From: a bacterium
GTDB lineage: Bacteria; Patescibacteriota; Microgenomatia; Daviesbacterales; UBA10151
DNA length: 39,798 nucleotides
Direction of reading: 5' to 3'
Assembly (NCBI GenBank): GCA_030647265.1
Contig: JAUSJM010000021.1
Location: forward strand, 1-39,798
Under the pieces are notes generated by a model that searched no databases, had not been told where the DNA came from, and saw only the letters and a list, made by a program, of their open reading frames with translations. Below are positions 35,350 to 39,798 of the stretch, in pieces. The number at the start of each line of letters is the position of its first letter. Position 1 is the first letter of the stretch. Both the position numbers and the translations under genes were made by a program.

Positions 35350-36345
35350 TTATCCACCTTTAACTTTTTTCCAAACCAAACCTAAATCAAACTTCAGAAG
35401 GTAAAGGGCAGAGAGCCCTCCTATGAGTAAGGTAATAATGGTAACAACATGGTATAGCACCGAGGCTGCCGAGACCATATTGGCTTCCAGACCTAAAATG
35501 CCTCCAAAAACAGCCAAAATGGAGGCTTCAGCTGATCCCACATAGCCCGGAGCTGCTGGCACTATAAAAGTGAGGGCAGTTAAGGAGTTTCCTAAAATCA
35601 CTTTGCCTATACCCAGATCTATCCCTAACGACTTAAATGCTATTATCCATATCATACTATCAGAAACTGTTGCTAAAATCGTCAGTACTACTAACCAAAC
35701 CACTTCTAAAGGATGTCTCCTTAAAACCTCAAATCCTTCAATGATAGTATGAATAAAACTCACCACTTTTTCCTTCACTCCTTCAAAAATCAAAAATTTT
35801 CCTAAGAAAGTTACTAATTTTTTAGCCCGGCTCTGGCTGCTGACAATAATTACTGCTGCCAGACTAAAGACTAAGAAAACCACTAAAACTGATTGGGCAA
35901 GGGAGGCAGGCAAGATAGTGGGAGTTAAAAAAAGAAAGATCACTATCAGAAGCAGTACAACCCAAAAATCCAGGAACCTATCCACAAAAACCCAAGTCAA
36001 GGCTTTTCCCAGGGGAAGATCAAATTGGGAAGTAAGATAAACACTTTTAGTAATTTCCCCTAACCTAATAGGGATCATAAAAGAAAGAAACTGGCTCAAG
36101 ACATTGAGTAAGGAGAGATCTTTCAAAGGCAATTTGTAATCCCCCAAAAGGATTTTAAAACGAAGGCCCCTCAGGAGGGTGGAAATAATATAAAAGAGAA
36201 AGAAAAAAGCTACCCATTGGAGCTGAACTGTTTTAAGGATGGCAAAGGTTTGCCCTAAATTAACAAACCTCGTCCAGACAAAAACCAAGACTATTCCTAA
36301 GATTGAATTGACTACAATTCTTAAGAAATTCTTTTTCTTCAACAT
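35350..36345 (-). CDS. YbhN/LPG-synthase-type flippase-like membrane protein
   Basis: 331 residues with about eight hydrophobic helices. Family marks include LLRGLRFKILLGDY (about 61-74), PIRLGEITKSVYL (about 91-103) and FIVPAAPGYVGSAEASILAVFGG (about 258-280). It belongs to the lysylphosphatidylglycerol synthase TM-region/UPF0104 group, which lacks the synthase domain here. Likely lipid or glycolipid transport; substrate unknown. Divergent from the dockerin gene. Confidence 0.9.
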   Translation of the reverse strand: MLKKKNFLRIVVNSILGIVLVFVWTRFVNLGQTFAILKTVQLQWVAFFFLFYIISTLLRGLRFKILLGDYKLPLKDLSLLNVLSQFLSFMIPIRLGEITKSVYLTSQFDLPLGKALTWVFVDRFLDFWVVLLLIVIFLFLTPTILPASLAQSVLVVFLVFSLAAVIIVSSQSRAKKLVTFLGKFLIFEGVKEKVVSFIHTIIEGFEVLRRHPLEVVWLVVLTILATVSDSMIWIIAFKSLGIDLGIGKVILGNSLTALTFIVPAAPGYVGSAEASILAVFGGILGLEANMVSAASVLYHVVTIITLLIGGLSALYLLKFDLGLVWKKVKGG

Positions 36346-36397
36346 CTGCTCATTGTATCAAAGAAGATTTAGATATGATATCTTTGAGAAAGGACCC

Positions 36398-37261
36398 ATG
36401 GAAAATACTGACACTCACTGGAACTTCAGCACCAAAAAGGTTATTGTTGTAGCAGGATTTCTTTTTATCCTCATCAGTATCCCCCTAAGTCTGACACTGG
36501 TCAAAAACACTCAGATTTTTAAATCAAGAGCCTTAGAAACTAAGACCAACAAACAACAAACCTCCACCCTGGATAAACAACTCACTAAAGAAGTGCCTGC
36601 AACCTCTCCCCTCTCCGATCTTAAAAAACAGCTGGAAGAGAGTTTAACTCCTCCTACTGCTACACCCACTCCCATGGCTAACCTGGCTTTTGGTCCTACC
36701 CTAACTTTAAAAATCAGTATTGAGGGCAGGCCTAAAGATAAACAAGCAGCCAAGGTTTTTATCGGAATCGCTGAGGGAGAAACTTCTACCAAACCTAAAT
36801 ATCTTCTAACCTTTACTGTTAATTTCCCGGACCTTGGAGTTTTTTCCGGTCTCAGTTTAGCCGGATTAAACCCCGGTTCTGTTTATACAGCGTACATTAA
36901 AGGTCCGGGGCAAGTAGATACTGCCTCCACCTTTACCATGGGCCCCAATGAAACCCATTTAAACAATGACCAGTCCTTAACTTTGCTCTCCGGAGATTTA
37001 AATGAAGATAATACCGTTAACACTGCTGACTACACTTTAGCTAAGAACCTCTATAACACCACCCCTTCTTCCTCCAACTGGAACGAGAGGGCAGACTTTA
37101 ACTTGGACAAGGTAATAAACAATCTTGATCTAAGCTTAATCCTAAAAAACTTTGGGAAAATTGGAGACTCCGGTGCCTGGTACTCACCCCCACCATCTGC
37201 TTCAGGCTCAGCTACCCCCTCCGGAGGACCTTCCGGTGGCTATTGGCTATGGATCCCCTAA
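36398..37261 (+). CDS. Exported dockerin type I domain protein
   Basis: 287 residues from the ATG at 36398; upstream codons overlap the divergent gene. One N-terminal membrane helix (about 13-32), a Thr/Pro spacer, a beta-sandwich-like region (FGPTLTLKISIEG ... GSVYTAYIKGPGQ), then two Ca2+-binding dockerin repeats (GDLNEDNTVNTADYTLAKN and DFNLDKVINNLDLSLILKN), and a Gly/Ser/Pro tail. It should bind a cohesin-like partner outside the cell. No cohesin is seen in this window. AAAGGA (36389-36394) lies very near the ATG; TATGAT (36374-36379) is a candidate -10. Confidence 0.88.
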   Translation: MENTDTHWNFSTKKVIVVAGFLFILISIPLSLTLVKNTQIFKSRALETKTNKQQTSTLDKQLTKEVPATSPLSDLKKQLEESLTPPTATPTPMANLAFGPTLTLKISIEGRPKDKQAAKVFIGIAEGETSTKPKYLLTFTVNFPDLGVFSGLSLAGLNPGSVYTAYIKGPGQVDTASTFTMGPNETHLNNDQSLTLLSGDLNEDNTVNTADYTLAKNLYNTTPSSSNWNERADFNLDKVINNLDLSLILKNFGKIGDSGAWYSPPPSASGSATPSGGPSGGYWLWIP

Positions 37262-37970
37262 ACCTATTAATTTCTCGCTCCAGTGTAGATTTAAAATCTC
37301 GTATAATTGCCCAATGCGATCTTGGCAAAAATTCTTTTAGCTCCTTTTCAAAATTAATATCTGAATCCTTTAGAGCATTAAAAGTCTGAGGTAAGACACT
37401 CTTTTTCTGAGCCGGGAGTAAATTTGCTCTGAGGATAAAATATAAATCGTAAAAGTCTCTCGGCTTTTTGCGTGCTAGTAGAGCCTGTATCTTCTCGTCT
37501 ACCAACTGATCTTGTAAAAGTGCGAAAACGGTATAGGTAGGGATGAAGTCGCTTTGAACTGTTATCAACTCCCCCTCTTTTTCTCCCTGTCTTAAGGAAA
37601 TTTCTAAATCTATTTTAACAGTAGGTTCTTTTTGAAAAAAAAGCGTAGCTCTATATCCCCCACTGGTACTTGTGGCTTCTGCATAATCTGTGGATGTCCC
37701 CTCTTTTTCAATCTGATCTAATGTCTGGATTAGAACTTGTTCTACCTCCTCTTTATTTGAAAGATTGGCAGAAAAGTCTAAATCTTCTGAAAATCGGGGG
37801 CTTTTATAGAGAATCTTAAGTGCCGTTCCGCCTTTAAAAAAGATATTGTTGGTTTGAGTTTGTTGGAAAAAGTATGACAAAAATAGGTGCTGATAATACT
37901 CACGAAGTACATTTATATCTGATGTTTGGTATTGGGTAATAAGTTTGTTAATTTGATCTTGAGCAATCAT
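37212..37970 (-). CDS. AbiEii-type nucleotidyltransferase toxin
   Basis: 252 residues from the ATG at 37970, which overlaps the upstream stop by ATGA. An earlier in-frame ATG at 37982 is possible. Nucleotidyltransferase motifs: FFKGGTALKILY and RFSEDLDFS, then KIQALLARKKPRDFYDLYFIL. AbiEii family members add nucleotides to tRNA or otherwise block growth; the pair can act in phage defence. The end overlaps the convergent dockerin gene by 50 bp. Confidence 0.92.
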   Translation of the reverse strand: MIAQDQINKLITQYQTSDINVLREYYQHLFLSYFFQQTQTNNIFFKGGTALKILYKSPRFSEDLDFSANLSNKEEVEQVLIQTLDQIEKEGTSTDYAEATSTSGGYRATLFFQKEPTVKIDLEISLRQGEKEGELITVQSDFIPTYTVFALLQDQLVDEKIQALLARKKPRDFYDLYFILRANLLPAQKKSVLPQTFNALKDSDINFEKELKEFLPRSHWAIIRDFKSTLEREINRFRGSIANSHRKVLRRG

Positions 37971-38590
37971 ATAATTTCCCATCTTTGTGGAAAGTCAAAT
38001 AATTTCTCCACTTTTTTAACAAGGGTTTTCCGTCCGAATAGTCTAGCATATTCAACAGCCTTACTTTTGTTAAGTGAGGAGACATTTAATCTGTCGAGTG
38101 ATGGACCACGTCCTAAGGTTGCAAAATACACATAGTCAACCAGTGCCTTCTCCGGCTCGGCGATCAAAAATGATCGCTCTCCCTCTTTGGCTAGTATGTA
38201 TCCGGTAAAAGCTTCCTCTTTAATGGTGTAGTAAGAAAAAGTTACGTTTGGACCGTTAAATACCCTCGTTGGTTTTGTAGTAGCCGAAGTCACTGTATAG
38301 GGCATCTCTGGGATAATATTGTAGTAAGCAAGAGCATATGCAAATGAGATATATGAAGGTCTGTACAGCTTATTGGCTACTTCCCTCTCATTAGGTGGGT
38401 CAGTTTTAAGAGTATAGAGACCTTGCTTTAGCCTCATTAACAACCCCTCTTCCACTTGGGTTTCTAGGAAGTATTTAATAGCATATGGTGAGGCTTGAAA
38501 AATCCGGGAAAACTCCAACGGGGTAAAAACTCGCACTCTTCTCTTAATAAGTTCCTCTCTGACTAGTAATGGTTTCAGAAAAGTGTACAT
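37967..38590 (-). CDS. AbiEi-type antitoxin/regulator
   Basis: 207 residues. The N-terminal winged helix (FTPLEFSRIFQASPYAIKYFLETQVEEGLLMRLKQGLYTL) binds DNA; the C-terminal AbiEi domain has YISFAYALAYYNIIPEMPYTVTSAT and IAEPEKALVDYVYF. Precedes and overlaps the toxin gene, the standard type IV arrangement. Repressed by its own product, most likely at the promoter below. Confidence 0.9.
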   Translation of the reverse strand: MYTFLKPLLVREELIKRRVRVFTPLEFSRIFQASPYAIKYFLETQVEEGLLMRLKQGLYTLKTDPPNEREVANKLYRPSYISFAYALAYYNIIPEMPYTVTSATTKPTRVFNGPNVTFSYYTIKEEAFTGYILAKEGERSFLIAEPEKALVDYVYFATLGRGPSLDRLNVSSLNKSKAVEYARLFGRKTLVKKVEKLFDFPQRWEII

Positions 38591-38640: not shown

Positions 38641-38688
38641 TACTTTATCTTTATCACTGTTTTAAAGTACATCCTTAAATTTTTAGCG

Positions 38689-38730
38689 GACAAATCTAGG
38701 CATTTTTCCTATTCCTGGATTGACAAATCT
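38689..38730. repeat. 9-bp direct repeat before the MerR-like fusion gene
   Basis: GACAAATCT at 38689-38697 and 38722-38730, 33 bp apart (about three helical turns). The second copy overlaps the -35 TTGACA (38720-38725). Candidate operator for the MerR-type head encoded just downstream. Confidence 0.55.
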
Positions 38731-38749
38731 CTGCAAATAAGCCTACATT
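38720..38749 (+). promoter_or_regulatory. Promoter of the MerR-like fusion gene
   Basis: TTGACA (38720-38725), 18 bp, TACATT (38744-38749); the ATG at 38756 follows after 6 nt. Confidence 0.65.
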
Positions 38750-38755
38750 AGAGTT

Positions 38756-39798
38756 ATGGCTGGTAGACTGCTCAAAATCGGCGAGGCTGCAAAGATATTA
38801 AAGATCTCTCAGGATACTTTACGCCGTTGGGAAAAGACTGGCAAAATTACTGCTATTAGGACTCCTGGGGGTACCAGACTCTACTCTTTAGAATCTCTCA
38901 AAACATTCCTTCCTCAAGATTCAACCTCAGCTTTTAAACCTCTAAAAAAGCTTGGCTTAGGTGTTTCCCTTAGAACACTAAGACGTTGGAAAGCCAAGGG
39001 ACAAACCCTTGTGATAACTCCCTTACCTTTACCAACCAGCCCATCTCCAGTTAGTAATCAAGAGAAAGTGGAGAGAACCATTAGAGAAGCTCAATTAAAG
39101 TCTTTGGAAAACCCTCAGGAGATCTATTTAGCAGAACCAGATCTTTCTTCCTCCTATAACCTCTCCTTTAGATCTTCTCTCTTTAAGATCACCTCTATAG
39201 TTTTAGTATCTCTTTTAATCTCTACCACCCTCCTGACAGGAGTACTTACTGCCTTTTATCTGACTAATCCTGTAAAGACTAAAGCTTTCTTTGCCAGTAA
39301 GTCATCAGTAAGCAGTTTTTTATCCCCCTTTAATCAGTTATCTTTAAAGATCTTACCAGCTTTATCTCCCCAAATAGCCTCATCAGTCTTAGTTCAAACA
39401 CCTGTTCATAACAGTATTTCTTCCTCTGTCCTGGCTGAAGAAGCAGTAGGTAGGTATTTAGAGATTAACTCTGATACCTATATCAAAGGGGATTTAATAG
39501 TAGAGAGGAATATTAATGGGGTAAACCTGGAATCTTTGGAAGGGGGAGGGATCAGGATCTCTGATTTAGAAGGTACCACCTCTTTAGATATCAGTGGTTC
39601 TAATTTAACATTAGATCAAGAGCTAGCAGGAGGAGGTACCCCTACCATAGAAGGGTTAAACTTAACCTCTACTAAAAACCAGCTTGTTTTAGGACCGGTA
39701 GGTGGTATTACCGGTACCTTAAGTTGGACACCTGCCTCTTCTTCCAAAACTTTAACCTTACCGGATATCACTGATACTTTAATTTCCAAAACTTCCAC
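38756..39798 (+). CDS. MerR-like DNA-binding head fused to a membrane helix and exported region (3' truncated)
   Basis: The open frame runs off the window: 347 residues are visible. Residues 5-53 are a MerR/excisionase-type winged helix (LLKIGEAAKILKISQDTLRR WEKTGKITAIRTPGGTRLYS). A second short TLRRWKAKG copy at 74-82 repeats its recognition-helix wording. After a Pro/Ser linker, a helix at about 143-168 crosses the membrane; the rest is Ser/Thr/Gly-rich beta-type sequence (DTYIKGDLIVERNINGVNL, GGIRISDLEGTTSLDISG, TLDQELAGGG) resembling tail-fibre or surface stalks. Topology implies a cytoplasmic DNA-binding head and external stalk. Related joined proteins may be common in CPR. No chimera artefact is apparent. 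Confidence 0.85.
   Translation, partial: MAGRLLKIGEAAKILKISQDTLRRWEKTGKITAIRTPGGTRLYSLESLKTFLPQDSTSAFKPLKKLGLGVSLRTLRRWKAKGQTLVITPLPLPTSPSPVSNQEKVERTIREAQLKSLENPQEIYLAEPDLSSSYNLSFRSSLFKITSIVLVSLLISTTLLTGVLTAFYLTNPVKTKAFFASKSSVSSFLSPFNQLSLKILPALSPQIASSVLVQTPVHNSISSSVLAEEAVGRYLEINSDTYIKGDLIVERNINGVNLESLEGGGIRISDLEGTTSLDISGSNLTLDQELAGGGTPTIEGLNLTSTKNQLVLGPVGGITGTLSWTPASSSKTLTLPDITDTLISKTS

Follow-up and report, generated by a model that had tools for sequence, protein, structure and literature searches.

The gene at the end of the window (the whole stretch of 39,798 bases analysed here) encodes, in our reading, a fibre held in the membrane, with a head that binds the fibre's own promoter at the sites described below and most likely represses it; we give this reading, taken as a whole, a probability of about 0.7. 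Computation gives good support to the predicted binding of the head to its own promoter; repression, action from the membrane, host attachment as the job of the fibre, and physical binding are what we infer.

Gene, DNA-binding head and membrane helix

The MerR-headed, membrane-anchored fibre gene was found on the forward strand at 38756-39796 as a single frame of 347 codons, uninterrupted as the sequence-only reading had stated, and open up to the final base of the contig (G000:C24, 39,798 bases); the 3' part of the gene is therefore absent from the contig. The same genome carries a second MerR-stalk copy on contig C7, where it directly follows an ATP synthase epsilon gene and is likewise truncated by the end of the contig; a different contig end encodes a stalk C-terminus 68% identical to that of a relative. 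Apparently the assembly is broken at the repetitive stalks, which would explain the truncated gene. Also in the window are a gene whose product has a type I dockerin domain close to the C-terminus (36239-37261, forward strand; 4.8e-9), an AbiEii-type nucleotidyltransferase toxin (37212-37982, reverse strand; PF08843, 5e-27) and, in the antitoxin position ahead of the toxin, a gene for 207 residues (37967-38590, reverse strand); the pair is divergent from the fibre gene.

The N-terminus had been read as a MerR/excisionase-type winged helix, and both profile and fold searches agree. The winged helix-turn-helix (HTH) covers residues 5-52 (38768-38911, forward strand): residues 7-43 match PF00376 with 57.2 bits (cut-off 28.2), PF12728 and PF13411 are likewise above their cut-offs, and residues 6-52 exceed that of TIGR01764 ("excisionase"). 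The best PDB match by sequence is BldC. The AlphaFold2 model is confident only over residues 1-50 (pLDDT 75-89), and its best PDB matches by Foldseek are the BldC-DNA complexes (6ama/6amk, target-normalised TM-score 0.73-0.79), followed by RacA. It should be noted that the whole-protein model has a mean pLDDT of 46.9, with values below 50 in the region after the transmembrane helix, and is usable for the head only, so that we make no claim on the structure of stalk or tip. Against the NCBIfam BldC subfamily the head scored 38.5 bits, below the cut-off of 77, and we regard it as a relative of BldC, not as a member of the subfamily.

The residues with which BldC contacts DNA were taken from PMC5859096. 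Among the first heads of the 79 proteins gathered (see below), in BldC numbering, Thr27 is kept in 97%, Arg29 in 100%, Arg30 in 83% (Asn in a further 15%), Trp31 in 86%, Arg41 in 83% and Arg47 in 97%. This retention equals that of soluble MerR-headed controls, and the exposed head positions that make no contacts vary freely across the 79 heads. Loss of the contact residues in all homologues would have spoken against a DNA-binding role; with each contact position conserved in 83-100% of the heads, the head has kept the appearance of a DNA-binding domain and does not look like a fossil. A second recognition helix, TLRRWKAKG, had been proposed as well. The stretch that includes it (residues 60-88; 38933-39019, forward strand) does match a second HTH, with only 16 bits; in L039, L064 and similar relatives a full second MerR HTH (64 bits) stands in its place, and about a third of the homologues have two full HTHs. 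We read the region as a decayed tandem repeat of the HTH, so what stands of the proposal is a degenerate copy.

The single transmembrane helix placed at residues 143-168 (39182-39259, forward strand) was confirmed by the strongest hydropathy window, at about residues 148-166, which lies within a predicted helix at 134-170. The topology is based on hydropathy and a weak positive-inside bias, the charge being more positive before the helix in 39 of 66 proteins and after it in 18. A conserved juxtamembrane motif, VL[AG], is present in the window as VLA (residues 225-227; 39428-39436, forward strand). It occurs within 130 residues of the helix in 63 of 79 proteins, compared with 0.17 expected per 130 residues, and sits 6-98 residues after the helix. 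The motif resembles the -3/-1 pattern of signal peptidase, yet it is usually far from the membrane; it may be a processing site or the first strand. The linker between head and helix differs in length and sequence among relatives, and no signalling domain was recognised in it.

Giant fibres across the Patescibacteria and their neighbours

When the genomes of the family were searched with the protein, about 25 of 34 presented a MerR head in a long frame. The set used here (79 proteins counting the window's own, spread over 13 families within the class and four outside it) comprises the MerR-headed frames from class and phylum samples that were fetched and then checked. Exactly one transmembrane helix was detected by hydropathy in 74 of the 79, shortly after the HTH, their frames ranging from hundreds of residues to thousands (8,840 in the longest, from G204); four of the other five are below the threshold, and L152, with several helices, is of a different kind. 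Long MerR-headed controls that are not stalks (C5/cytosine methylases, HsdM, PAS-kinase) have no transmembrane helix, so the test discriminates. The architecture, which had been proposed as one to look for in other CPR genomes, recurs there with a head of MerR type rather than OmpR type on a membrane-anchored stalk, and the genes are not split in related genomes; a split would have told against it. In the phage, plasmid and viral-contig collections the fusion of head, helix and fibre was not found: apart from one HsdM-type fusion and transposase heads, all matches were solo HTH proteins of short length. Searches of the literature turned up neither a MerR protein bound to the membrane nor a CPR fibre with a MerR head. 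MerR-type HTHs were also identified by eye on the N-terminus of cytosine methylase-like or HsdM-like proteins of several Patescibacteria (L075, L118, L121, L166-L168; L117, L163, L165, L192).

The exported stalk starts in the window at 39437-39796 (forward strand) with a YLEINSDT..GDL.V.. domain, recognised by alignment and similarity to relatives and cut by the contig end; it is 54-71% identical to giant proteins of G016. An external beta-repeat-like region continuing past the window had been described: it does run past the window, and its beta-rich nature cannot be demonstrated from the window's residues alone. A search of the window's first ~120 stalk residues for a tail-fibre match gave nothing significant (best PHROG E 0.16). 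Complete homologues do show the tail-fibre-like character of the stalk, through matches to tail-fibre families; the stalk of L064 matches tail-fibre PHROGs with 2.6e-33 and 1.9e-32. Peptidase_S74, a chaperone, is present in 5 of 17 long proteins and LamG in 2, collagen, Kelch and SH3 modules were found in other long stalk proteins, and the L070 stalk has collagen and an H-lectin-like stretch. The C-terminal 500 residues of the stalk are conserved in the alignment of relatives, in the order GDYLTSSSTPGVAMKAT..VVGKALE domain, Ala/Ser-rich stretch and tip ending in FDWWIV; for the conserved penultimate domain no Pfam family was found, and a PDB search with it gave nothing significant. The modules and the conserved C-terminus suggest a trimeric adhesive fibre. 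Two fibre genes, L053:4839-11084 and L069:6760-10764, contain Intein/Hint splicing domains; in them a VVGQCV motif is followed by runs rich in arginine close to the C-terminus.

An association of fibre genes with ATP-synthase-like genes recurs in two arrangements. In one, about 20 stalk genes immediately follow, and are co-oriented with, an ATP synthase epsilon gene (L038, L041, L044, L045, L048-L051, L053-L056, L058-L060, L112, L122 and the C7 copy mentioned before). In the other, the divergent neighbour belongs to a family (L123:3084-3923, L131:2979-3758, L161:15881-16729, L072:1628-2401 and others) built of a signal peptide, an external domain homologous to the GDYLTSSSTPGVAMKAT domain of the stalk (33% identity, 4e-15, for one member) and a two-helix hairpin. 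The hairpin has a GRNP loop like that of the ATP synthase c-subunit and no obvious proton-binding acid in its second helix, and the c-subunit-like protein matched no Pfam family. A b-subunit-like gene often follows and, in L072, also an atpD-like gene.

Promoter, operator and head class

The operator motif was derived from words over-represented upstream of the stalk genes, which resolve into CAAATCTATGCA. In family f1, the 36 upstream regions (9.4 kb) contain 31 such sites (at most one mismatch), against 8 in the rest of these loci (~564 kb), a 233-fold upstream enrichment, with the qualification that discovery and testing used the same upstream set, the held-out test of the window excepted. 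A second over-represented upstream word, GCAGACGGA, occurring 2-12 times per genome, was not accepted as an operator specific to stalk genes; it is often found 16-32 nt before the stalk start codon (L041, L048-L054, L056, L058, L059, L112 and the C7 copy). Repeat-spacing counts pooled over all lineages were too weak alone and were replaced by an analysis per head class.

In the window all elements lie on the forward strand ahead of the ATG. Operator copy 1, CAAATCTAGGCA (38691-38702), is 33 bp upstream of copy 2, CAAATCTCTGCA (38724-38735), and the latter overlaps the predicted -35 hexamer TTGACA (38720-38725), which agrees with the class consensus. A degenerate further repeat, CAAATAAGCC (38734-38743), probably follows 10 bp after copy 2, by comparison with the 10-bp repeats of relatives; copy 2 and this repeat together fill the 18-bp spacer. 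The predicted -10 hexamer, TACATT (38744-38749), lies 18 bp from the -35, the spacing of the class, and 6 bp before the ATG, and the fibre mRNA is predicted to be near-leaderless. The repeats (38691-38743) had not been noticed in the sequence-only reading, although the interval that it singled out for a DNA-binding assay, 38680-38760, covers them. When the window was excluded from the training of the matrix, its two operators ranked first and second of ~79,600 positions, with 18.0 and 16.2 bits versus 10.0 bits for the next best site. In the 785-kb genome the paired operator pattern occurs once, at the fibre promoter, and a reversed control pattern has zero occurrences.

The same organization was observed in the relatives. 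The -35 consensus TTGACAAA[T/C][C/T/A]T is present in 22 of 24 promoters of the GGTR head class, and the spacer from TTGACA to the -10, usually TAnnnT, is exactly 18 bp in 22 of 23; it usually contains two copies of a 10-bp direct repeat, and additional operator sites are found near +1 and, in inverted orientation, near +25. In a set of 45 genomes, the other clean CTATG/CTAGG pairs are mostly located ahead of stalk heads; among the exceptions are pairs inside genes and G019:C1:195342 (L257). The latter is a clean 10-bp operator direct repeat upstream of a 176-residue frame with one hydrophobic segment, a small membrane protein, in a genome with no recognised stalk gene.

The operator changes with the class of the head. 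CAAATCTATGCA precedes 19 of 25 genes of the GGTR class (TLRRW helix, GGTR wing; Fisher 3e-11); the RN class (TLRNW, in which Arg30 of BldC is replaced by Asn) is without it and has the palindrome ATTCCTAGGAAT in 4 of 12 (Fisher 3e-4), and the GNQR class (GNQRRY wing) has AACTTGGACAT in 9 of 13 (Fisher 3e-9), these tests treating genes as independent, so that the shared descent of orthologous promoters could explain part of the conservation of the motifs. No motif occurs in another of the three classes. Upstream of the 29 proteins with other head types, for which no operator was identified, CAAATCTATGCA occurs in 2 cases, and shuffled upstream regions score 0-0.25%. In all eight genomes that hold paralogues of two head types (G007, G010, G012, G014, G016, G022, G031, G136) the GGTR-class copy is closer to CAAATCTATGCA, a contrast that lessens the effect of shared descent and does not remove it. 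Operators of the GNQR class are placed immediately after the -10. In L123, L125, L129 and L131 exact or near-exact sites are also present 49-80 bp ahead of the divergent gene, which in L123, L125 and L131 encodes the c-subunit-like membrane protein, and fibre and stalk-related neighbour may therefore be co-regulated. The simplest reading of these patterns is that each fibre's head recognises its own promoter.

Proposed mechanism, alternatives and meaning

According to the mechanism that we propose, the cytoplasmic N-terminus of a giant single-pass surface fibre would be a functional BldC/MerR-type DNA-binding head, which would bind repeated CAAATCTATGCA sites between and around its own -35 and -10 as head-to-tail units on 10-bp direct repeats. 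It would thereby repress its own transcription, and the number of inserted fibres would limit further synthesis of a very costly protein. Sites in the spacer and near +1 (GGTR), or just past the -10 (GNQR), argue for repression. The gene would be near its own product because the head is made first and the membrane protein is inserted during synthesis, and local self-limitation of a protein of several thousand residues would be an attractive reason for an N-terminal HTH. Instead of acting from the membrane, the head could be set free by proteolysis and act as a soluble fragment.

That the head works like BldC of Streptomyces on its own promoter appears well supported. BldC is its best match by sequence and fold; neither has a coiled coil or effector domain, the sites are AT-rich direct repeats about one helical turn apart (9 bp in BldC, PMC5859096, and 10 bp in the fibre promoters), and the equivalent of the base-contacting Arg30 is present. 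BldC binds its direct repeats as head-to-tail multimers, and by analogy the fibre heads may do so on theirs. However, BldC is a soluble protein of 68 residues with a regulon, while in the fibre the domain forms the cytoplasmic end of a giant protein anchored in the membrane, and its sites are nearly confined to its own promoter.

A different possibility, which we hold only tentatively, is that the host-contact fibre is itself a transcription factor in the sense of ToxR or CadC: contact or tension at the outer end, or shedding at VL[AG], would alter promoter binding at the inner end and so induce or silence the fibre gene and, in some lineages, the divergent ATP-synthase-like operon. One protein would link exported fibre and operator, VL[AG] could be the cleavage site, and the four GNQR loci with operators upstream of the divergent gene are in line with this, but the head is joined to the helix by a linker that is variable and holds no recognised signalling domain, and contact sensing by the protein is speculative. 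Activation is doubtful. The operator fills the 18-bp spacer, which is compatible with MerR-type activation, where the head twists an over-long-spacer promoter into active form, as in MerR promoters, where the operator is situated within a spacer of 19-20 bp (PMC5859096). However, the spacer is just 1 bp above the 17-bp optimum, and the further operators near +1 and +25, like the GNQR operator just downstream of the -10, are in repressor-typical positions. It is improbable that another, soluble regulator owns the operator and that the stalk head is a relic: solo MerR/excisionase-type HTH proteins are present in many relatives, but the window's own genome (785 kb, 92% complete) has just two MerR domains at E<=1e-5, both of them stalk heads, with no other recognisable MerR protein at that threshold, and the operator sequence shifts with the head class of the downstream gene within single genomes. 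Finally, the idea, also raised in the sequence-only reading, that the head became a structural anchor, a RodZ-like or RacA-like HTH tethering the fibre to cytoskeleton or chromosome with transcription control lost, would recall RacA, which is MerR-like and serves to anchor chromosomes (cited in PMC5859096), and the MreB genes near four of the stalk genes, but it is very improbable, since the operator in the gene's own promoter and almost nowhere else in the genome fits promoter control rather than scattered anchoring sites, and a RodZ-like HTH would no longer bind DNA, while contact residues and operator appear to be kept here.

The autoregulatory fibre, as we prefer to read it, can be compared with other known systems. 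As in ToxR, CadC and TcpP, DNA-binding head, one transmembrane helix and external part are in one polypeptide, which by architecture would make it a transmembrane transcription regulator; however, its head is of MerR/BldC and not OmpR type, its outer part reaches thousands of residues instead of being a small sensor, and the principal target identified is the fibre gene itself. The main text of a 2023 survey (PMC10269533) does not name MerR, and what is new here is probably the transmembrane-regulator build with a BldC/MerR head and a giant fibre outside, autoregulatory. Classical MerR regulators have a C-terminal coiled coil and effector domain and a palindrome in a 19-20 bp spacer, whereas the fibre head is followed by helix and stalk and has direct repeats in an 18-bp spacer, and we would place it outside that group. 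RacA of Bacillus also links DNA to cell structure through a MerR-like HTH, but it is soluble, anchors the chromosome at the cell pole and binds GC-rich sites as a symmetric dimer (PMC5859096). The stalks of complete relatives share profile matches and S74 domains with phage tail fibres, but their genes are in Patescibacteria genomes and the proteins are membrane-anchored and DNA-binding-headed. The very large surface proteins of Absconditicoccaceae are also patescibacterial, exceed 1,500 residues and carry adhesion domains; they were proposed for host recognition, with no mention of a MerR or HTH head (PMC13059738).

In the Patescibacteria, which are ultra-small and mostly uncultured, host attachment and the control of the largest and costliest proteins are poorly known. 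The fibres described here form a phylum-wide family of giant proteins with a readable control element, whose operator can be predicted from sequence, and would add a MerR/BldC head and a self-regulating structural fibre to what is known of transmembrane transcription regulators. The specificity changes between paralogues are ready-made swap experiments, and E. coli can serve for tests of head and promoter, so that no culture of the organism is needed. If, in addition, the tentative reading of the host-contact fibre as a transcription factor were true, one molecule would close the loop from the host surface to the gene.
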